Shown here: in pieces, positions 1-21,095 of the stretch | Numbering within the stretch: position 1 is the first letter of the stretch | Layout: each line of letters starts with the position of its first letter | Virus record (IMG/VR): IMGVR_UViG_3300030430_000702 | Location: 1 to 31,997 of that record | Source: a virus | Strand: one strand, 5' to 3' | DNA length: 31,997 nucleotides | Program-made: the position numbers and the translations under genes | The notes under the pieces: generated by a model | What the model saw: only the letters and a program-made list of their open reading frames with translations | The model's database searches: none | What the model was told of the DNA's origin: nothing

Positions 1-231
1 TACATTAAAATTTTTGGTGGTTTTACTGACAATAGATTTGACGGCGTTCTGCCTGGCTTCATGATCAACAGTAAAGTTTGCAGTAAAGTTTACTGTAGAC
101 TTTACTTTATTTTCTTTACTTAAATTATTTACTAGGAGTTTGTCTATACTTTTAGCTAGGGTGTGACGTAAACTTTGCTGTATAGACTGTCTACTAACGA
201 TTTTATCTTTTGAATTTTTTTCGTCAATCAT
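1..231 (-). CDS. N-terminal 77 codons of an unknown early protein (cut by window edge)
   Basis: An open frame begins with ATG at 231-229 and runs without a stop to the window edge. It overlaps the stop of the preceding gene (228-506) as ATGA, the coupling used throughout this operon. The visible part is hydrophilic and rich in Lys, Ser and Asn, with an internal near-repeat (VNFTANFTVD) produced by repeated DNA at 69-106. I recognise no domain. As the fifth gene of the leftward early operon that starts at the Cro-like gene, it could belong to replication functions, but that rests on position only. Confidence 0.6.
   Translation of the reverse strand, partial: MIDEKNSKDKIVSRQSIQQSLRHTLAKSIDKLLVNNLSKENKVKSTVNFTANFTVDHEARQNAVKSIVSKTTKNFNV
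69..179. repeat. Iteron-like cluster of AGTAAAGTTT motifs
   Basis: CAGTAAAGTTT occurs in tandem at 69-79 and 81-91 with a 12-bp period. The second copy extends into the palindrome AGTAAAGTTTACT (82-94). Inverted versions follow at 99-106 (ACTTTACT), 114-120 (CTTTACT) and 168-179 (GTAAACTTTGCT). The cluster lies inside the coding region of the truncated gene. It could be protein-binding iterons, as in some replication origins, or a by-product of a repeated peptide. Confidence 0.4.
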
Positions 232-1218: not shown

Positions 1219-1428
1219 CTAATCTACACGATAAAAATCATTAGGCGTTACAGCTCCGTCAGTTACTGTCATGATTGCAGCCATGTATTTTGCGCTTGGT
1301 ATCATCCTATCTTTGTGTGTTTTAGGAAGACAAAAACGCCTGGCAATCGTTGCATGATTAGCACCTATCATTGCAGCTAACTTGGCATAGCTCATTTTAT
1401 TTTGATCTTTAAATTCTCGTAATGTCAT
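1219..1428 (-). CDS. Cro-like helix-turn-helix regulator
   Basis: 69 residues, mostly one HTH. MTLREFKDQNKMSYAKLAAMIG followed by NHATIARRF gives helix 2, turn and recognition helix (about residues 12-32), and the C-terminus contains a strand-like segment (VTPNDFYRVD). It is the first gene of the leftward early operon and is divergent from the larger repressor gene at 1535, the standard cro/cI arrangement. No ribosome-binding site fits between its -10 box (1436-1441) and the ATG, so its mRNA may be leaderless. It probably competes with the repressor for the operators at 1447-1472. The Cro-like call is firm; the biological role is inferred from position. Confidence 0.8.
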   Translation of the reverse strand: MTLREFKDQNKMSYAKLAAMIGANHATIARRFCLPKTHKDRMIPSAKYMAAIMTVTDGAVTPNDFYRVD

Positions 1429-1435
1429 GCCCTGG

Positions 1436-1463
1436 ATTATATATAATTGACAGTATCGGTCAA
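1436..1463 (-). promoter_or_regulatory. Leftward early promoter (Cro-like operon)
   Basis: On the minus strand, TTGACC (1463-1458) and TATAAT (1441-1436) are separated by 16 bases, close to the sigma-70 consensus. Only 7 bases lie between the -10 box and the ATG at 1428. The -35 box and spacer are covered by the inverted repeat at 1447-1463, so a bound repressor would block it. Confidence 0.75.
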
Positions 1464-1472
1464 TACTGTTAA
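1447..1472. promoter_or_regulatory. Operator, left (repressor/Cro binding site)
   Basis: TTGAC (1447-1451) and GTCAA (1459-1463) are inverted arms of a 17-bp site. An overlapping GTCAATACTGTTAA (1459-1472) is an imperfect inverted copy of TTGACAGTAT, which suggests two overlapping half-site pairs. A site of the same length and arms lies at 2209-2225, and both are preceded by the identical ATATATAATTGACA (1439-1452 and 2201-2214). Confidence 0.65.
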
Positions 1473-1481
1473 TTATTTAAT

Positions 1482-1510
1482 TTGCAATATGACAGAATGT
1501 GACATATCAT
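1482..1510 (+). promoter_or_regulatory. Candidate promoter of the repressor gene
   Basis: TTGCAA (1482-1487), a 17-base spacer and TATCAT (1505-1510) point toward the repressor gene at 1535. The spacer holds TGACA twice, at 1490-1494 and 1500-1504, which could be half-sites for autoregulation. A weaker alternative is TTGACA (1447-1452) with TAATTA (1470-1475). Confidence 0.5.
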
Positions 1511-1534
1511 TTATTTCAACAATGAGGTACAAGA

Positions 1535-2200
1535 ATGAACAATAGAATTTCAAATTATCGAAATATGCTCTTGGGAGATCATTATCGTTATATGACATCT
1601 AATTTGAAAAAGTACATACAGCTATCAGGCATGAGCCATGCTGAAGTTGCAGCTGCTAAAGGTATTGCGCCTGAAAGCCTTAGTAGGCATATATCAGGTA
1701 GATCACAATTCAGTATCCAAGATGCCATTGAATACGCTGAAATATTACAAATAGACCCAACTGCTATCCTATTTGATCCATGTAAAGTCAAAGTGTTTGG
1801 CAATATAATAAACGGATTTAGTGTCAATATGGTTAATGCCAGTGAAAAAGAAAAATTTGTTTATACATCTAATATCCGATTCGCTAGTCATGTTGGTGCA
1901 TTTACTAATCAAAGATCTGAATTTAATACTTATTTTGATGGTACTATTACTTGGGCAGATATGCGCCCAATACAATCAGAAACAATACCCCAGGACGCTT
2001 TGAGTAGGTGCTGTATATATAAATGCGCAAACACAAAAACTATAACTCAAGCCGTTTTGCACAAGCAACAAAGCGGTAAATTCACCATAGAACCTCTTGA
2101 ACATGGACACTCTATAATGACAGATGTTGATGTTGTATGGGCGTGTCCAGTTTTAGGAAGAGCTGAACGACCTGATTTGTTAGGTTTAGAAATAAAATAA
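1535..2200 (+). CDS. CI-like lysogeny repressor (HTH protein)
   Basis: 221 residues. An XRE-type HTH spans about residues 20-80: NLKKYIQLSGMSHAEVAAAKG, then APESLSRHISG as turn and recognition helix, and a closing helix with IDPTAILF. The C-terminal 140 residues are probably the oligomerisation domain. They faintly recall the S24/LexA fold (VFGNIINGFS; a C-terminal VWACPVLGRAERP), but I see no clear self-cleavage site or catalytic Ser/Lys pair, so induction may not use RecA. The start is supported by GAGG at 1524-1527, seven bases before the ATG. Matching operators on both sides of the gene imply that it controls both early operons and probably itself. Confidence 0.8.
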   Translation: MNNRISNYRNMLLGDHYRYMTSNLKKYIQLSGMSHAEVAAAKGIAPESLSRHISGRSQFSIQDAIEYAEILQIDPTAILFDPCKVKVFGNIINGFSVNMVNASEKEKFVYTSNIRFASHVGAFTNQRSEFNTYFDGTITWADMRPIQSETIPQDALSRCCIYKCANTKTITQAVLHKQQSGKFTIEPLEHGHSIMTDVDVVWACPVLGRAERPDLLGLEIK

Positions 2201-2208
2201 ATATATAA

Positions 2209-2237
2209 TTGACAAGTACTGTCAATTTCTATTTAAT
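2209..2237 (+). promoter_or_regulatory. Rightward early promoter with operator
   Basis: TTGACA (2209-2214), a 17-base spacer and TTTAAT (2232-2237) form a strong sigma-70-like promoter. The inverted repeat TTGACA-AGTAC-TGTCAA (2209-2225) sits on the -35 box and half the spacer, an ideal repression position. It drives the recombination operon from 2271. Confidence 0.75.
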
Positions 2238-2262
2238 CCCATCTAGTAGATAACAGATGGGG
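2238..2262 (+). promoter_or_regulatory. 5'-leader hairpin covering the ribosome-binding site
   Basis: CCCATCT (2238-2244) pairs perfectly with AGATGGG (2255-2261) around a 10-base loop. The 3' arm contains the only purine-rich Shine-Dalgarno candidate (GGGG, 2259-2262), eight bases before the ATG at 2271. No T-run follows, so it is not an intrinsic terminator. It begins right after the -10 box, so the first bases of the transcript may or may not include the whole 5' arm. Confidence 0.45.
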
Positions 2263-2270
2263 TTAATTAT

Positions 2271-3200
2271 ATGGAGTTCCCAACACTGCCCAACTGGGCA
2301 ACACAAAAAAACTACTTATGGCATTCTAATCCTGAAAGTAGACCAGTATGTAGAACATACTTTGATAAATGTATTATAAGACCAAAGCTAGATATAGCTT
2401 GGTCTATAGTCAAAGGCGAAAAGGACGGTGATAAAGATCACGCCTTAGAACAAATCAAAAAATATACTAATGACGCAGCTAAAATGACAGCTGGTAAAGT
2501 TGTGCAATCATTAGTTGAAGATTACAGAATCAATAACAAAGCAGATACGATAGAAGATTGTATTGGTGCTGGTAAAGAAATGTTTGCCGAATACAAACCT
2601 AAGACCTGGGATGATGGCAAGGACGAAGCGCAACTAGAAATATGTAGAGATACTTTTGCTGATGTATTTAAGAATGCTTTGCAAGGTATCGATGAAGCGC
2701 AAAACAAATTAAGAATAAATAAACTAGAAGGTGAACGTAATTATATGTTTGCTGTTCCAGGTCTAGCATTAGAGTATAACGGCAAGCCTGATTTTAACGG
2801 ACAAATAGAACTTAAAACTACCTGGGCAACATACAGTAAACTAATAAGTTCAGGAAGGCGTTCAGCTAGTCTACCTTCGCAACCTAGCTGGTCGCATCTA
2901 TGCCAAGTTGCTGGATACTGGGCATTCAAGAATGAGCCGCAATCAATTGTATATGCTAACGAAAAAGGTTTTAGAGTTTTTACTGAAGAGAACTGCGAAA
3001 AACTAGCGCCTGAAGCATTAAAAAATATTTGGAATCATATTGTAGCTAAATGTCGTATCCGTGAAAACCAGCTCAAATCAGCTGATACAGTAAATGATTT
3101 GATACAGCTAGTCGAACCTGACTTTAGCCATATGTACGCTTGGGATATTCATCCTGACGTTTTATCAGAAGCAAAACTATTATGGGGATTTATACAATGA
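2271..3200 (+). CDS. PD-(D/E)xK nuclease, RecB/Cas4-like
   Basis: 309 residues. The motifs of the RecB-type nuclease superfamily appear in order: AGKVVQSLVEDY (about 74-85) in the place of motif I, GKPDF with D174, IELK with E180 and K182, and LCQVAGYW with Q212 and Y216, the QxxxY motif of this group. Phage members act as 5'-3' exonucleases that prepare single-stranded ends for recombination, often next to an annealing protein, and one is encoded at 3659. It is the first gene of the rightward early operon under operator control. Whether it is an exonuclease or an endonuclease cannot be told from the sequence. Confidence 0.8.
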   Translation: MEFPTLPNWATQKNYLWHSNPESRPVCRTYFDKCIIRPKLDIAWSIVKGEKDGDKDHALEQIKKYTNDAAKMTAGKVVQSLVEDYRINNKADTIEDCIGAGKEMFAEYKPKTWDDGKDEAQLEICRDTFADVFKNALQGIDEAQNKLRINKLEGERNYMFAVPGLALEYNGKPDFNGQIELKTTWATYSKLISSGRRSASLPSQPSWSHLCQVAGYWAFKNEPQSIVYANEKGFRVFTEENCEKLAPEALKNIWNHIVAKCRIRENQLKSADTVNDLIQLVEPDFSHMYAWDIHPDVLSEAKLLWGFIQ

Positions 3201-3334: not shown

Positions 3335-3669
3335 TTCAAACAAATATGTTTGATAAATTAGAGGTTCCTAGAAATGTCCGTGAAGCACGCTTTCTAGAGT
3401 TTCATAAACAATATCCTATAGTCTATAGATTATGGGATAGGTTTACCAGGGAATGCATACATAATGGCATGAAAAAGATTGGCGCAGCTTTAATTATGGA
3501 ACGTATACGCTGGGAAACAAGTGTTGTCATACAAGACAGCACGCAAAACGAAAAAAAATTAAAAATAAATGATCATCACAAAGCATATTATTCACGGCTT
3601 TGGATGAAAAATAATCCTGAATATAAAGGTATATTTGAAACTAGAGGAGTAGAAGGCAGTGAAGATTGA
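3331..3669 (+). CDS. Conserved phage protein of unknown function, 112 residues
   Basis: 112 residues, starting in an ATGA overlap with the membrane peptide gene. It resembles a conserved type of phage protein built around FLEFHKQYPIVYRLWDRFT, a central IGAALIMERIRWET and a C-terminal KINDHHKAYYSRLWMKNNPEYKGIFETR, often found near recombination or replication genes. The many aromatic and basic residues would suit nucleic-acid contact, but no catalytic motif is visible and I assign no function. It overlaps the next gene by 11 bases. Confidence 0.75.
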   Translation: MIQTNMFDKLEVPRNVREARFLEFHKQYPIVYRLWDRFTRECIHNGMKKIGAALIMERIRWETSVVIQDSTQNEKKLKINDHHKAYYSRLWMKNNPEYKGIFETRGVEGSED

Positions 3670-4288
3670 AGATATAATTAGTGAAATTAAAAGTATCGAG
3701 AAAGTCGATATAAAAGGCAAAGCATACACAACTGTTGCAACAAGGGTAGAAATTTTTAGAAAATTTTTTGGTTTTGATTACTCAATAAACACAGAATTAT
3801 TAGTTGATGATGGCAAAAGAATTTTAATGAAAGCAACCATAAGTAATAAAGAAGGTAATGTTGTAGGCGTTGGTCATGCTGAAGAGATAAGAGGGTCAGG
3901 ATATTTTCCAATGAATGATAAAAGAAATATAAACACAACATCAGCACTAGAGAATTGTGAAACCAGTTGTATTGGTCGTGCGCTTTCCTCTCTTTCGTTA
4001 CATGGTGGTGAATACGCAAGTATTAATGAAATAGAAATAGCAGAAGGAAAGAAAAAAAAGTTGGATAAAAAACCTACTACTAAATATCAAGAAGATAGAC
4101 TTGCAGCTGCTGAAAAATATGTAGAGGAACAGATGCAAGCTATCCAAACTATGAACCCAAATGCACTTATAGTTTGGACACAACAAGAATCAGATAACTT
4201 AAAATCGTTAGCTGATTTTAGTAAAAATCTACATACAAAATTGTTTAATGCTTATAAGGAAAGGAAACAAAATGGCATCAGCACCTAA
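3659..4288 (+). CDS. Candidate single-strand-annealing recombinase (ERF/Rad52-like)
   Basis: 209 residues, GTG start at 3659 with GAGGAG (3643-3648) upstream. The core has KAYTTVATRVEIFRKFFG, a beta-rich middle (ISNKEGNVVGVGHAEE) and INTTSALENCETSCIGRALSSL followed by HGGEYAS. The 'TSALENxETSxIGRAL' block is shared by phage proteins I associate with Rad52-fold annealing or ssDNA-binding proteins. The C-terminal 75 residues are Lys- and Gln-rich. Pairing with the nuclease at 2271 gives a Red-like exonuclease/annealing set. The coding call is sure; the function is moderately supported, and an ssDNA-binding role is the main alternative. Confidence 0.65.
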   Translation: MKIEDIISEIKSIEKVDIKGKAYTTVATRVEIFRKFFGFDYSINTELLVDDGKRILMKATISNKEGNVVGVGHAEEIRGSGYFPMNDKRNINTTSALENCETSCIGRALSSLSLHGGEYASINEIEIAEGKKKKLDKKPTTKYQEDRLAAAEKYVEEQMQAIQTMNPNALIVWTQQESDNLKSLADFSKNLHTKLFNAYKERKQNGIST

Positions 4289-4568
4289 TATGAAAAATAG
4301 TAAACTTAGACTAAATGGATCTATAAATGCTACTGATCAAATATCAGTTGGATTTTGGTTTAACATTGACGATCCTGATCTAGTTGACCAGCTAGAAAAG
4401 TATTACGCTATAGCTAATAAATCACCGTCAATACAGCTGCAAAGAAAAGAGATAGATACATACACAACAATGGGTAGTGCTAATCTATTTTTACCTGATG
4501 AGCGTAAGACTATGTTGCAAAGCAACTCAACATTAATAGGAGATGATGATGGCTTCCCTGGAAGGTAG
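4272..4568 (+). CDS. Small early protein of unknown function
   Basis: 98 residues from the ATG at 4272, chosen over an in-frame ATG at 4248 because AAGGAAAGGAAAC lies just before it. The protein reads MASAPNMKNSKLRLNGSI, then QISVGFWFNIDDPDLVDQLEKYY, and ends in an acidic GDDDGFPGR. The pattern suggests a short beta-sheet plus a helix; no family is recognised. It overlaps the annealing-protein gene by 17 bases and the HTH gene downstream by 20, so it belongs to the same operon. Roles in recombination or as an inhibitor of a host enzyme are both possible and untested. Confidence 0.65.
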   Translation: MASAPNMKNSKLRLNGSINATDQISVGFWFNIDDPDLVDQLEKYYAIANKSPSIQLQRKEIDTYTTMGSANLFLPDERKTMLQSNSTLIGDDDGFPGR

Positions 4569-4752
4569 AACTTTATTAAGACCTAAAGAAGTAGCCATTA
4601 GATTGTTTGGTGATTTTGGTGATACTAATCGTAAAAGAATTTATCGCTGGATACACAACAAAAAAATAAAATCTATAAAAGATAATAGAGTGTACTTTAT
4701 ACCTAAATCTGAAATACACCGTATTGAATCAGAAATGGAAATGGCGGATTAG
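4549..4752 (+). CDS. Excisionase-like HTH protein
   Basis: 67 residues from the third of three consecutive ATGs (4549), which sits six bases after AGGAG (4538-4542). LLRPKEVAIRLFG followed by TNRKRIYRWIHNKKIKSIKDNRVYFIPKSEI has the MerR/AlpA 'HTH_17' shape: helix, turn, recognition helix, then a two-strand wing ending in a 'yfipkseieri' motif. Small proteins of this type next to an integrase are usually excisionases or directionality factors. It is the last gene of the rightward early operon, so excision would follow derepression. Its stop overlaps the integrase stop on the other strand. Confidence 0.75.
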   Translation: MASLEGRTLLRPKEVAIRLFGDFGDTNRKRIYRWIHNKKIKSIKDNRVYFIPKSEIHRIESEMEMAD

Positions 4753-4762
4753 TTTCCGCCAT
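4741..4762. terminator. Hairpin containing both stop codons at the convergent junction
   Basis: ATGGCGGA (4741-4748) and TCCGCCAT (4755-4762) form a perfect 8-bp, GC-rich stem with loop TTAGTT. The loop holds the stop codon of the excisionase-like gene (TAG, 4750-4752) and most of that of int (4751-4749 on the minus strand). Neither side has a T-run, so it would act as a processing or weak termination site for both converging transcripts. Confidence 0.5.
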
Positions 4763-5897
4763 ACATTGCTGAAGCAGCTGCTTGTCTTGCCTTTGCTTGT
4801 TTTCTTTCATTCTTAACAAAGTGACCATACTGCTTGTAAGTAAAGTTAGAGTTTGAATGCCCCATAAGAGCTGCTACTTCCGCCCAATCTTCACCCAGGC
4901 TAGATAACTGTACTGATGCATAAAAGTGTCTCATATCGCCCCATAGGATAGGTTTTACACCAGCTCTTTCACAAACTCTTTTAATTAGTTTGATCAATAT
5001 CTTTTGTACTTTTGGTGTACCGTTAGAGCTTGCAAACACAATGTCACCAGGTGCGCTAAACTTTGATGCAATCTTTAGCTCTTTAAGTTTCTTCATAGTA
5101 GCTGCATCAATAGGTATTTCTCTTCTACCTCTTTTAGTTTTAGTGTCACCAATAATCATTGTGCCATGCTTCACTGCACCCTCGATACGAATTGTATGAT
5201 TATTAAAATCAATGTTGCCCCACTTCAATGCACGCAGCTCACCTTGTCTCATACCGCTTGCAAGAGCTGTAAGAACCATACACTGATCATAAAGAGTTTC
5301 AGCTGGTAATCCGTCATTAACAATCTTTTGAATTGTCTCAGGCTGTATTCTTGGCGCCCTATCTCCAAGCTCTGATGACATACCTAATGAAACTTTATCA
5401 AGAGGGTTTATTGTAATCCAACCTTTAAGATCACAATAATTTAAAAACATTTTTAATACTTTAATTCTTTTCTCAGCTGTAGCTTTTGATTTACCTTCGT
5501 CAGTAATACCTTTAACAAAAGCTGTAACTAATTCAGATTTGTTTTCTCTTTTAATAATATCAAAACTTTGATCTAAAAATTTCTTACCATCAATTTTAAT
5601 ATCCAAACAATAACCTAACGATTTTTTTATCTCTTTGAAAAATGAAACAGACAATTCTTTATTATCTATCCTAGTTGATTGGTAATGATAAAACTTATCT
5701 ACTGCCTGGGATACTTTTACTACGTCAACTTTTTCTGCAATAGCACCAGTAATAAATTTAGCTTTGAGTAATTCAGCTTCTTTTAAAGCAGCTGCTTTTG
5801 ATGAAAAGTTACCATAATAATGTGAGTAACCCACACGCCTTGCATCAATAACCCAATGCTTTCTTTCTTCCCAATATCTTACTTTTAGATCCTTCAT
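4749..5897 (-). CDS. int: Tyrosine-recombinase integrase
   Basis: 382 residues, typical phage integrase length. The N-terminal ~55 residues are an arm-binding-type domain (VRYWEERKHWVIDARRVGYS); residues 60-165 are the core-binding helices; the catalytic domain follows from about 180. Visible catalytic residues are R217 (GMRQGEL), a lysine in the hairpin (K253 or K255 of DTKTKRGRR), R323, H347 in LMGHS and the nucleophile Y357 in YKQYGHF. The first His of the HxxR box is replaced by Gly (G320 in WGDMRH). AGGAG lies seven bases before the ATG. The gene reads away from attP and is convergent with the early operon. It would insert the phage into a tRNA-Asp gene. Confidence 0.95.
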   Translation of the reverse strand: MKDLKVRYWEERKHWVIDARRVGYSHYYGNFSSKAAALKEAELLKAKFITGAIAEKVDVVKVSQAVDKFYHYQSTRIDNKELSVSFFKEIKKSLGYCLDIKIDGKKFLDQSFDIIKRENKSELVTAFVKGITDEGKSKATAEKRIKVLKMFLNYCDLKGWITINPLDKVSLGMSSELGDRAPRIQPETIQKIVNDGLPAETLYDQCMVLTALASGMRQGELRALKWGNIDFNNHTIRIEGAVKHGTMIIGDTKTKRGRREIPIDAATMKKLKELKIASKFSAPGDIVFASSNGTPKVQKILIKLIKRVCERAGVKPILWGDMRHFYASVQLSSLGEDWAEVAALMGHSNSNFTYKQYGHFVKNERKQAKARQAAASAMYGGN

Positions 5898-5929: not shown

Positions 5930-5957
5930 AATATAACAGTAGATGACATATTTTCAA
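5930..5957 (-). promoter_or_regulatory. Candidate integrase promoter
   Basis: On the minus strand, TTGAAA (5957-5952), 16 bases and TATATT (5935-5930) precede int by about 33 bases. The repeat at 5976-5994 lies just upstream, so Int bound to its arm sites could influence its own expression. Confidence 0.5.
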
Positions 5958-5975
5958 GATATAGACAGAAAAAAA

Positions 5976-5994
5976 TGTCTACAAAATGTCTACA
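5976..5994. repeat. Candidate Int arm-type site, copy 1
   Basis: TGTCTACAAAATGTCTACA: two TGTCTACA units 11 bases apart. The identical 19-bp sequence recurs in the same orientation at 6196-6214 on the other side of the tRNA fragment. An inverted TAGACA lies at 5962-5967. Confidence 0.7.
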
Positions 5995-6063
5995 TGGACT
6001 ATTTATAAAAGTTATGAGAAAGGTGTTTTGGGGGATAAGCCATTGATATTGCTAGGAATATAA

Positions 6064-6108
6064 TGGCGAGAGTGACGAGACTCGAACTCGCGACCTCCGG
6101 CGTGACAG
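6064..6108 (-). other. attP core: 3' part of a tRNA-Asp gene
   Basis: Read on the minus strand, 6108-6064 equals tRNA positions 32-76: anticodon loop CTGTCAC (anticodon GTC, Asp), the 3' anticodon strand GCCGG, variable AGGTC, T-arm GCGAG-TTCGAGT-CTCGT, the 3' acceptor strand CACTCTC, discriminator G (as in tRNA-Asp) and encoded CCA. The 5' half is missing: the bases past 6108 cannot pair with GCCGG. This is the usual form of a phage attP that restores the 3' end of the target tRNA after integration. The surrounding non-coding stretch 5898-6215 holds the int promoter, this core and two copies of the arm repeat; bases 6109-6195 hold no gene that I can see. Confidence 0.9.
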
Positions 6109-6195
6109 TTCGTAAAAAACCTATGCGTGGGGTGTAAAGAGGTAGGTATTCAGGGAAATACGGCTACAGAGTTCCCACCGATTCCCTCGAAAAAG

Positions 6196-6214
6196 TGTCT
6201 ACAAAATGTCTACA
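6196..6214. repeat. Candidate Int arm-type site, copy 2
   Basis: An exact second copy of the 19-bp sequence at 5976-5994, 87 bases beyond the tRNA fragment. It lies two bases after the stop codon of the 34-residue gene in that gene's reading direction. Confidence 0.7.
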
Positions 6215-18304: not shown

Positions 18305-21095
18305 CGTATGATACTCCACCGTTGATCCATGTTGCAGATGGGTTCTTATAAACCACGGTCTTATATTGTACTACATCTGCAAAACTTATTCCATCTATTT
18401 TTCCTATTTCTTCTATAACATCTGCAAATAAGTCTTCTTTTTCTTCAAATATTTCTTTTGCCCTAGATGGATCAAATGCTTCATCAAACTCAGGTATGTA
18501 CTGAAATCTAATACCAGTTAATCCAGCTGTTGGTTCATTACTTAAAGACATAATGTCAGGTCTATCTTTATACCTTGCGTCAGTAATAAATGTAAAACCA
18601 TCAATTCCTCTAGCTCTAAGTGTGTTGGTAATTATCTGCGCAAAGTCTACATTTTGTCTGTTTTGAAAGTATATTTCTGCGCCAGGTCTAGCTCCTTCAG
18701 TTCCGTCAGCAACAACCTTTGATACAAAAACTGCATCCTGGTTAAATTTTTTGCCCATCTCAACAACTTTATCTGTCATAGCCTTGGGATTAAAATTTGT
18801 TCTTGTAACAACCTCAAAATTCAAAGATCTTTCCAATTCACCCATAAATTCGCCATATGTGTTATTAGCCTGGAAAGCCATAACAGTATTATCATTTTTA
18901 AGAGGTGCTGTAAGTTCTGCTGACAACTCAGCTTGTTGTATGTTTGTTGGAACATTGTCAGGTCTTTCTCTTGAAATACCTATTGTTGTTCTTTCAGGTG
19001 ATCCTTCAAGAGTTTTTAATTCATCTGCTGCTTTTATTTTATCAGCTTCACTTGAAGCAGAACTATTAATAATTGATCTAAGCTCTTTTACTCTTTCAGG
19101 ATTAGCTGACCCACCATACACACTTTCAAAGTCTAATGATCCACCCTCACCAGCTTTTGTTGTCCATCCGTTCTTAGTCCACTTTTCTTTTTCTAAAAAC
19201 CATACAACTGCTTGAAGATCATCTGCGCCCATGTCACCAATATTTGGATTAAATGCTTTTATACCGCCCTCCGTATTCAATCTATTTGCAGCATCAGAAA
19301 ATACCTCTTGACCAAAACCAAACTCAGATCCTATTTGTGGATTTTCAAAAGTACTTTTAGTTAGATGTTTACCAGCTACAGCTTTTTCTGCTGGTGGTGG
19401 TATTCTTGGTAATCCAGCAGCATCTCTAAGATATCTAGCCGCCCATACATCTATTGTAGCTTCATTACCAAAACCAATAAGATTACCAGTAAAGTTAATT
19501 GTTTTAGGAGCTTTGCCAGGTTTTATTTGCCTGAACATATCAAGTAAAGCTGTAGTGGCTGCTGGACTATTATTTCCAAATAATTTACCAGCTGCATTTC
19601 TTATAAGATCAAAATCAACATTTTCATCTTTTGCCATTGCAGTAAGTCTTGTTGAACTTAAATTACCATCTTCATCGGCAATCTTTTTATACATTTCAAT
19701 TTGTTTGTCAAAATCACCACGGACAAAAGATCTTAGTACACCAACAGCATTTTCATAGTTTTGTTGTACGTTAGTCATTGCTGACGTTGCACCAATAATA
19801 TCAGCAAATACATCAGATAAACCACCAAACTCTCTTCTTAGTCTAGATCTCATTGATCTATACCAATTAGCCTGGTTAATAATATCTATTGCAGCTTGAT
19901 CACCACCCTTTGCTCTTTCAAGCACAGCGTTTACATCAGCAACCATTTTGTTTACAAGATTAGATTTATGAGTTGTAACAGCTGCTGCTTTTTTATCACC
20001 CTTTAATTTGTCAAAATTTCTAACATTGGGAATATGAAAAGCATATGCTGGTTGCTGCCATCTTATATCTATTGTACCTTTTTTATCAACTTTAAATGAT
20101 GGGTTTTTACTATCAGCTGCAATATTTATTGGAAGCCATCCTTCACTTTCAGGGTATTCATTTTTTACTCTTAGAGCTTCGTCTCTAATAGTATTATACT
20201 CTTTTGTTGTTTTAGTATCTGCTTTTAACTTTGTTGTTTCTGCTCTTGATAGACGTTTGATTAAATCACCTATAACACCAGCTTCAGCTTCACTTGTTGC
20301 AGCCGAACCAGCTGCTACAGTGCCACCTTGTAAAACTCTTTTCCAAGGTATTTTTCTACCAATCCTAAATGCAGCTTCTAATAAACCACCTATGCCCATT
20401 CCCTCTAAAGATGACTTTGCAAGTTTAACAGCTTCAGGATCATCTTCGTATTTTGTAAACAAACCAACTAGCATTTCTCGCAATGCTTCCTGATCTTGTT
20501 GCTCAACGCCCTCAGGGTTTGACAATAACTGACCTACGAGCGTTTGATCGTTTGCATTAAAAGCAGTAGCATCAGCTATACCGCCCCACATTAATGACCT
20601 GGTAAAAGGATTTGCATTTGTAATTAATTTTACAAAAGAAGCAGCTGGTATTGCTGTTGTACCAAATTGAGATATAGCTTCTGTCAATGCGCCAGTAATT
20701 TGATTGTCATACGGTTTGGAAAGATACTCATTAAATTTTACATTTAAAGATTTTGGAATAAGTTGTTCTCCAAAATCTGTTATAGCCTTTATACCGCTTT
20801 GTAAAAAATCACTTCCCATAACTGGATTTTGTATATCAAAGCCAATTTTATTTAGACCAGCTGTTACAATATCAACTGGCGCACCAACAATTGTTGCCAG
20901 GTTCATTGGCGCTTCTGTCATACCTTTGACAGCACCTTTTACAGTAGCACGCCCTATTGTTCCTGGTATTGATTCAGTTTCATTTACAACTGGCTCTACT
21001 TTTTCTTTAGGCTTATTAACAACACCAATATTAAAAAAAGCAGCTGTGTCTGCTGCTTCATAATTATTTTCTATTTGGTCTAAATAACTTGTCAT
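18276..21095 (-). CDS. Large internal virion protein, 939 residues
   Basis: The N-terminal ~290 residues are Gly/Ala-rich with weakly hydrophobic stretches (IGRATVKGAVKGMTEAPMNL, MGIGGLLEAAFRIG), suited to a pore or ejection role. From about residue 400 the sequence becomes well-folded and enzyme-like: WYRSMRSRLRREFGGLSDVF, then IIGATSAMTNVQQNY, FTGNLIGFGNEATIDVWAAR and DDLQAVVWFLEKEKW, a domain set I recall from other phage giant proteins with no firm function (perhaps DUF7178-like). The last ~150 residues are beta-rich. It is flanked by other internal-protein genes with 4-base and 29-base overlaps. Confidence 0.65.
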   Translation of the reverse strand: MTSYLDQIENNYEAADTAAFFNIGVVNKPKEKVEPVVNETESIPGTIGRATVKGAVKGMTEAPMNLATIVGAPVDIVTAGLNKIGFDIQNPVMGSDFLQSGIKAITDFGEQLIPKSLNVKFNEYLSKPYDNQITGALTEAISQFGTTAIPAASFVKLITNANPFTRSLMWGGIADATAFNANDQTLVGQLLSNPEGVEQQDQEALREMLVGLFTKYEDDPEAVKLAKSSLEGMGIGGLLEAAFRIGRKIPWKRVLQGGTVAAGSAATSEAEAGVIGDLIKRLSRAETTKLKADTKTTKEYNTIRDEALRVKNEYPESEGWLPINIAADSKNPSFKVDKKGTIDIRWQQPAYAFHIPNVRNFDKLKGDKKAAAVTTHKSNLVNKMVADVNAVLERAKGGDQAAIDIINQANWYRSMRSRLRREFGGLSDVFADIIGATSAMTNVQQNYENAVGVLRSFVRGDFDKQIEMYKKIADEDGNLSSTRLTAMAKDENVDFDLIRNAAGKLFGNNSPAATTALLDMFRQIKPGKAPKTINFTGNLIGFGNEATIDVWAARYLRDAAGLPRIPPPAEKAVAGKHLTKSTFENPQIGSEFGFGQEVFSDAANRLNTEGGIKAFNPNIGDMGADDLQAVVWFLEKEKWTKNGWTTKAGEGGSLDFESVYGGSANPERVKELRSIINSSASSEADKIKAADELKTLEGSPERTTIGISRERPDNVPTNIQQAELSAELTAPLKNDNTVMAFQANNTYGEFMGELERSLNFEVVTRTNFNPKAMTDKVVEMGKKFNQDAVFVSKVVADGTEGARPGAEIYFQNRQNVDFAQIITNTLRARGIDGFTFITDARYKDRPDIMSLSNEPTAGLTGIRFQYIPEFDEAFDPSRAKEIFEEKEDLFADVIEEIGKIDGISFADVVQYKTVVYKNPSATWINGGVSYDEYFGTATR

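Follow-up and report, generated by a model that had tools for sequence, protein, structure and literature searches.

A putative lysis-lysogeny switch with matching 17-bp operators on both sides of a CI-like repressor gene in an HTVC010P-like podovirus

The window, by which we mean the whole stretch of 31,997 nucleotides analyzed here (positions 1 to 31,997 of IMG/VR virus record IMGVR_UViG_3300030430_000702), contains a gene for a CI-like repressor of 221 aa (1535..2200, plus strand) with an N-terminal HTH_3 domain (Pfam 1.7e-6) and a match to the PHROG transcriptional repressors. On its left, a leftward operon begins with a gene for a Cro-like small HTH protein of 69 aa (1219..1428, minus strand), an ORF for which 16 homologues were aligned and whose individual Pfam HTH matches are weak only. 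On its right, the first gene of a rightward operon encodes a putative recombination nuclease (2271..3200, plus strand), which has no Pfam match and resembles regions annotated 'putative nuclease' in the Pelagibacter phages HTVC100P and HTVC028P. A putative ssDNA-annealing (ERF/Sak-like) protein (3659..4288, plus strand), whose PHROG match is a family of unknown function, adjoins the nuclease as in phage C72C1. It is followed by a putative excisionase (4543..4752, plus strand; Pfam HTH_17 at 6e-6, just under the cut-off, and a weak PHROG excisionase match) and, convergent with the operon, by a tyrosine integrase (4749..5897, minus strand; Pfam Phage_integrase 2.4e-22). The portal protein is 52-57% identical over 86-99% of its length to those of HTVC010P-type pelagiphages. 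We are probably dealing with the immunity region of an HTVC010P-like podovirus, and a temperate one. Farther along the leftward operon lie a VRR-NUC nuclease gene (807-1217) and, adjoining it, a gene for a 103-aa protein with an NrdR-like zinc ribbon (499-810; Pfam 5.7e-13). A long imperfect stem, AGTAAAGTTT...AGACTTTACT, was flagged as terminator-like within a coding region near the left end of the window (70-106).

The C-terminal domain of the repressor belongs to no recognized family. HTH is found in nearly all of its 53 homologues and S24 is unmatched in any of them; in a sequence test across homologues, neither a Ser nor a Lys is invariant within the C-terminal part. These sequences lend no support to an SOS-type cleavage switch.

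The two AT-rich spacers that bound the repressor gene carry matching elements. The first-pass annotation had pointed to a 14-mer, ATATATAATTGACA, repeated at 1439-1452 and 2201-2214; both coordinates are correct, and there is no third copy in the 31,997 bases (0.00 expected). It had also described 17-bp inverted repeats at 1447-1463 and 2209-2225. These are real, and they are the only exact occurrences of TTGACN7GTCAA in 32 kb, where dinucleotide-preserving shuffles lead us to expect 0.01. We refer to them as putative operators O1 (1447..1463, TTGACAGTATCGGTCAA) and O2 (2209..2225, TTGACAAGTACTGTCAA), which lie 762 bp apart and cover the -35 elements of the leftward and rightward promoters, respectively; like the other candidate sites described below, they are annotated without a strand.

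While the repeat itself is present, the direct 14-mer did not hold up as a functional unit: its first bases are unconserved at O2 (this copy reads ATTTATAATTGACA in two relatives, L005 and L007), and its roles differ at the two sites. An inverted match, ATTGACNNNTACTGTCAATT, fits both promoters better. With one copy on the minus strand (1445-1464) and one on the plus strand (2208-2227), it gives O1 and O2 identical placement and orientation relative to their respective promoters: read in the direction of transcription, ATTGACCGATACTGTCAATT has TATAAT downstream on the left and ATTGACAAGTACTGTCAATT has TTTAAT downstream on the right. Since this consensus was derived from O1 and O2 themselves, the informative point is its absence elsewhere in the genome, even at one mismatch. 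Tested against shuffles spacer by spacer, the best palindromes are not significant (p 0.43 to 0.64). The case therefore rests on the genome-wide uniqueness of the motif and on its conservation in relatives; on both counts, the earlier concern that the 17-bp site might occur at random elsewhere is answered in the negative.

Sequence inspection bears out that the two promoters fire outward, left into the Cro-like operon and right into the recombination operon, with the repressor gene between them at 1535-2200. Both had been described as strong. The leftward promoter (1436..1463, minus strand; TTGACC-16-TATAAT) has a consensus score of 11/12. For the rightward promoter (2209..2237, plus strand; TTGACA-17-TTTAAT) the term was overstated: the -10 is weaker, matching 5/6, and reads TCTAAT in relatives. 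The leftward -10 ends only 7 nt before the Cro-like ATG, which predicts a leaderless Cro-like mRNA (1428-1441). Among 23 cluster representatives the best -10 sits 5-10 nt from this ATG, a spread bounded by the search range, and the distance is about 7 nt in many clusters. On the other side, the nuclease mRNA is predicted to begin with a stem-loop (2238..2261, plus strand), immediately ahead of the ribosome-binding region. The leader hairpin computed over 2238-2290 (-12.4 kcal/mol, z -0.93) is not significant by itself in the window phage; several relatives have stems of differing sequence at the same place as 2238-2261.

Searches of IMG/VR returned 69 relatives of the Cro-like gene, 11 of the nuclease and 80 of the repressor. 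We measured 61 immunity regions, those where automatic placement succeeded for the Cro-like start as well as for the repressor, forming 23 clusters (repressor identity <60%); L131 and L137, where the reading frame is broken near the match start, were left out of the spacing test. Most regions preserve the order Cro-like gene, repressor, nuclease, with repressor identity falling to about 25-30%, and an integrase is present in all 15 repressor-bearing records tested. The arrangement is shared by many divergent phages of the ocean. Nearly all clusters with clear sites have the start of O1 at 17-20 nt from the Cro-like ATG, and O2 mostly lies no more than 30 bp past the repressor stop. A clear O2 is absent in L115, L159 and L162, and O1 and O2 are poorly matched in L127 and L147; in L114 and L118, one 17-mer occurs in exact inverted copies at the two positions.

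Comparison of these regions also revealed sites missed in the first pass. A putative operator O1b (1489..1505, ATGACAGAATGTGACAT) precedes the repressor start, at a distance of 42 bp from O1. In 18 of the 23 clusters, the motif match that scores best beyond O1 is at 39-43 bp; 200 trials with shuffled sequence gave a mean of 1.9 clusters and never more than 5. The other five clusters lack this spacing, and the DNA between the two sites is poorly conserved among relatives. As about 42 bp corresponds to four helical turns, O1 and O1b would lie on the same DNA face. An extra half-site adjoins O1 (1464..1472, TACTGTTAA, reverse complement TTAACAGTA) and has a GTTA that is conserved at this offset in the profile of the relatives.

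We may ask whether all this reflects shared sigma-70 promoter elements only, with -35 boxes in AT-rich spacers resembling each other by chance and no operators at all. TTGACA is indeed the -35 consensus, the single palindromes are not significant by shuffling, and site positions 1-5 double as the -35 element, so that their constancy is no sign of repressor binding. However, the right half-site GTCAA has no function in the promoter concerned, and O1b bears the motif where no promoter is evident. The fixed 39-43 bp spacing, a co-variation of inner positions outside the conserved core and a site near the integrase, the last two described below, also speak against such an origin, which we regard as very unlikely.

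Among phages, the outer TTGAC/GTCAA is nearly constant and the inner bases differ, defining TTGACA, TTGAYTTT and TTGACG types. Permutation of O2 among phages shows that O1 and O2 of the same phage resemble each other beyond chance at half-site positions 6 and 7 (p 0.015 and 0.001, respectively, with relatedness uncorrected). Whole-spacer matching is likewise higher within than between phages (p 1.5e-4 for 20 cluster representatives, shared ancestry uncorrected). Motif classes track the recognition helices predicted for both the repressor and the Cro-like protein: HTH helices of the GIAPESLSRH type go with TTGACA, and GIRPETVSRH/GFKEAT with TTGAYTTT.

Close relatives provide a second view of this association. 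In L006 and L008, the segment formed by spacer, repressor and spacer is only 52-60% identical to the window, against 94-95% for the Cro-like gene and 90-94% for the nuclease; in L008, the successive values are 95% (Cro gene), 60% (spacer), 52% (repressor), 59% (spacer) and 94% (nuclease). As judged from these alignments, the repressor and both operator regions are exchanged as a block within conserved flanks. This bears on the idea that a host regulator, such as host LexA or another HTH protein, binds the palindromes in place of phage proteins. Sites for host factors are commonly palindromes overlapping promoters. A host factor, however, would not swap along with a phage repressor, and the motif does change with the repressor gene between close phages and follows the helix classes of the repressor and Cro-like protein. 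We hold a host regulator to be exceedingly improbable.

In 15 loci examined, the Cro-like gene and the nuclease have no repressor gene between them, and one or two 17-bp sites are retained; L018 displays a single palindrome between these two genes, which are divergent. That the palindrome outlives the repressor suggests that the Cro-like protein probably binds it. Gene content varies in these phages: L014, L018 and L019 keep the Cro-like gene, integrase and excisionase, L012 and L013 also keep the Cro-like gene while lacking that for the repressor, and in the L025-L047 group, where the Cro-like gene adjoins the nuclease with no repressor, integrase is absent in 8/8 records tested.

The sites might then be mainly operators of the Cro-like protein, the large repressor acting elsewhere or only via Cro. 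The Cro-like gene is the constant neighbor of the palindrome, including in repressor-less phages, and in L006 and L008 it stays 94-95% identical in DNA while the repressor and spacers have changed. Yet in these same swaps O1b and O2 change with the repressor and not with Cro; furthermore, O2 and the integrase site are far from the Cro gene, and the sites flank the repressor in most repressor-bearing clusters. On balance we find this explanation unlikely, while according it some weight.

The integrase site is a putative fourth operator (5933..5949, ATAACAGTAGATGACAT), 36 bp upstream of the integrase ATG; L091 has a matching site, ATAACAGTAAATGACAT, in the equivalent position. We scanned each phage with a motif trained only on its own O1, O1b and O2. 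The window's site ranks fourth outside the immunity region by the window's own motif, and its counterpart ranks first in most relatives. In 11 of 19 clusters, the best extra match falls within 400 bp upstream of integrase (0.94 expected), often at 32-42 bp from its start codon. The integrase site also comes first in 39% of trials with motifs taken from other phages, and thus much of this signal comes from the shared TTGAC/GTCAA core. Two other matches in the window (20519-20535 and 1256-1272) also exceed the background score; both are intragenic, and we rejected them as operators.

The 3' end of a tRNA gene is the usual form of an attachment site. A probable attP of this kind (6063..6108), beside the integrase gene, is 91% identical over 45-46 bp to the 3' end of tRNA-Asp(GTC), the matches being to two alphaproteobacterial genomes (MAGs). 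Repeated AATGTCTACA motifs flank it at 5971-5994 and 6194-6213 and may be arm-type sites for integrase. Several relatives also have strong copies of their own operator in the interval that separates the early-left operon from the terminase genes, mostly before rightward genes: L099 (1216-1254), L103 (895-933), L106 (1388-1426), L145 (1008-1024), L146 (935-951) and L134 (2772-2788). Some of these copies are paired 22 bp apart. It looks as if cargo genes in such phages carried repressor-controlled promoters.

Taken together, we think it very probable, on the strength of these comparisons, that the region is a lysis-lysogeny switch, in which the repressor would act on O1 and O2 to shut both early arms. 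In the following scheme we infer which protein pairs with which site, any cooperativity or looping, and the direction of each effect. In a lysogen, repressor dimers on O1 would block the leftward promoter, hence the Cro-like gene and early-left operon, and dimers on O2 would block the rightward promoter of the nuclease, annealing protein and excisionase: a single protein would thus silence both arms. O1b probably lets the repressor or Cro control repressor synthesis, and O1 and O1b may be bound cooperatively. The fourth site would place the integrase promoter under the same control. During lytic growth, the Cro-like protein, on at least O1, would lower expression of the repressor and early genes.

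A broader reading is that this is a widespread marine switch distinct from that of lambda, based on a repressor with no recognizable S24 domain and a Cro-like protein that share dispersed 17-bp operators; we consider the arguments for and against it evenly balanced. By the same reading, to which we give an equal chance of being right or wrong, operators would be placed at the Cro promoter, at the repressor start (with the fixed four-turn spacing) and at the promoters of recombination, integrase and, in some phages, cargo genes, and lineages losing the repressor would keep operators and Cro, some with integrase. The proteins are named and the candidate operators exact to the base pair, so that tests in E. 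coli would not require the host in culture. The motif predicts which phages share immunity, and natural losses of the repressor can show how temperate phages turn lytic.

HTVC010P relatives are among the most abundant viruses in the ocean (PMC4981710). The window resembles these Pelagibacter podoviruses in its portal, homologous at group-level identity, and has distant nuclease relatives in HTVC028P, HTVC100P, HTVC106P and Lederberg; it differs in its repressor, for which a set of 50,697 phage records contains no match. Our literature search found no operators described for the HTVC010P-like group, an absence that is no proof, and no paper on how HTVC010P relatives might hold lysogeny. Compared by layout, the lactococcal phage TP901-1 offers a likeness: its CI/MOR switch of <1 kb combines a CI-type repressor, a divergent small regulator and three dispersed operators, OR, OL and OD (PMC7250872). 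However, TP901-1 is a Gram-positive phage, its MOR is a partner of CI at composite sites, and its operators are not arranged as promoters that flank the repressor gene and fire outward. Rhizobium phage 16-3 is an alphaproteobacterial temperate phage with a master repressor, C (PMC10460002). We liken the window to it by description only.

In lambda, the repressor gene stands between two outward operator-promoters, with a divergent cro, and a promoter beyond the repressor 3' end drives the recombination genes and excisionase. Lambda operators are 17 bp long and cover promoter elements, and relatives exchange heteroimmune blocks. The first-pass annotation spoke of a lambda-like PL-cI-PR region: this holds for the layout and not for membership, as we found no operator triplets, no recognizable S24, N or rex. 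By the molecular features that define the lambda family, the region does not belong to it. Where lambda has two sets of three sites, the window has one 17-bp site at O2, and O1 with O1b 42 bp away. The lambda operator regions are 2.3 kb apart (PMC3708714), against 762 bp here. Other differences from lambda are the separate putative operator at integrase and the repressor without a recognizable S24 cleavage domain. Neither an N antiterminator nor rexAB was found in the region, where no gene intervenes between the repressor stop and O2 and the nuclease gene directly follows O2. The likeness lies in a repressor gene placed between outward operator-promoters, a divergent Cro-like gene, a recombination/excision operon starting past the repressor 3' end, and one same operator at both promoters, whose two copies change jointly from one heteroimmune relative to another. 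In the window's relatives the repressor moves together with the operator regions, as it does in heteroimmune lambdoid phages.
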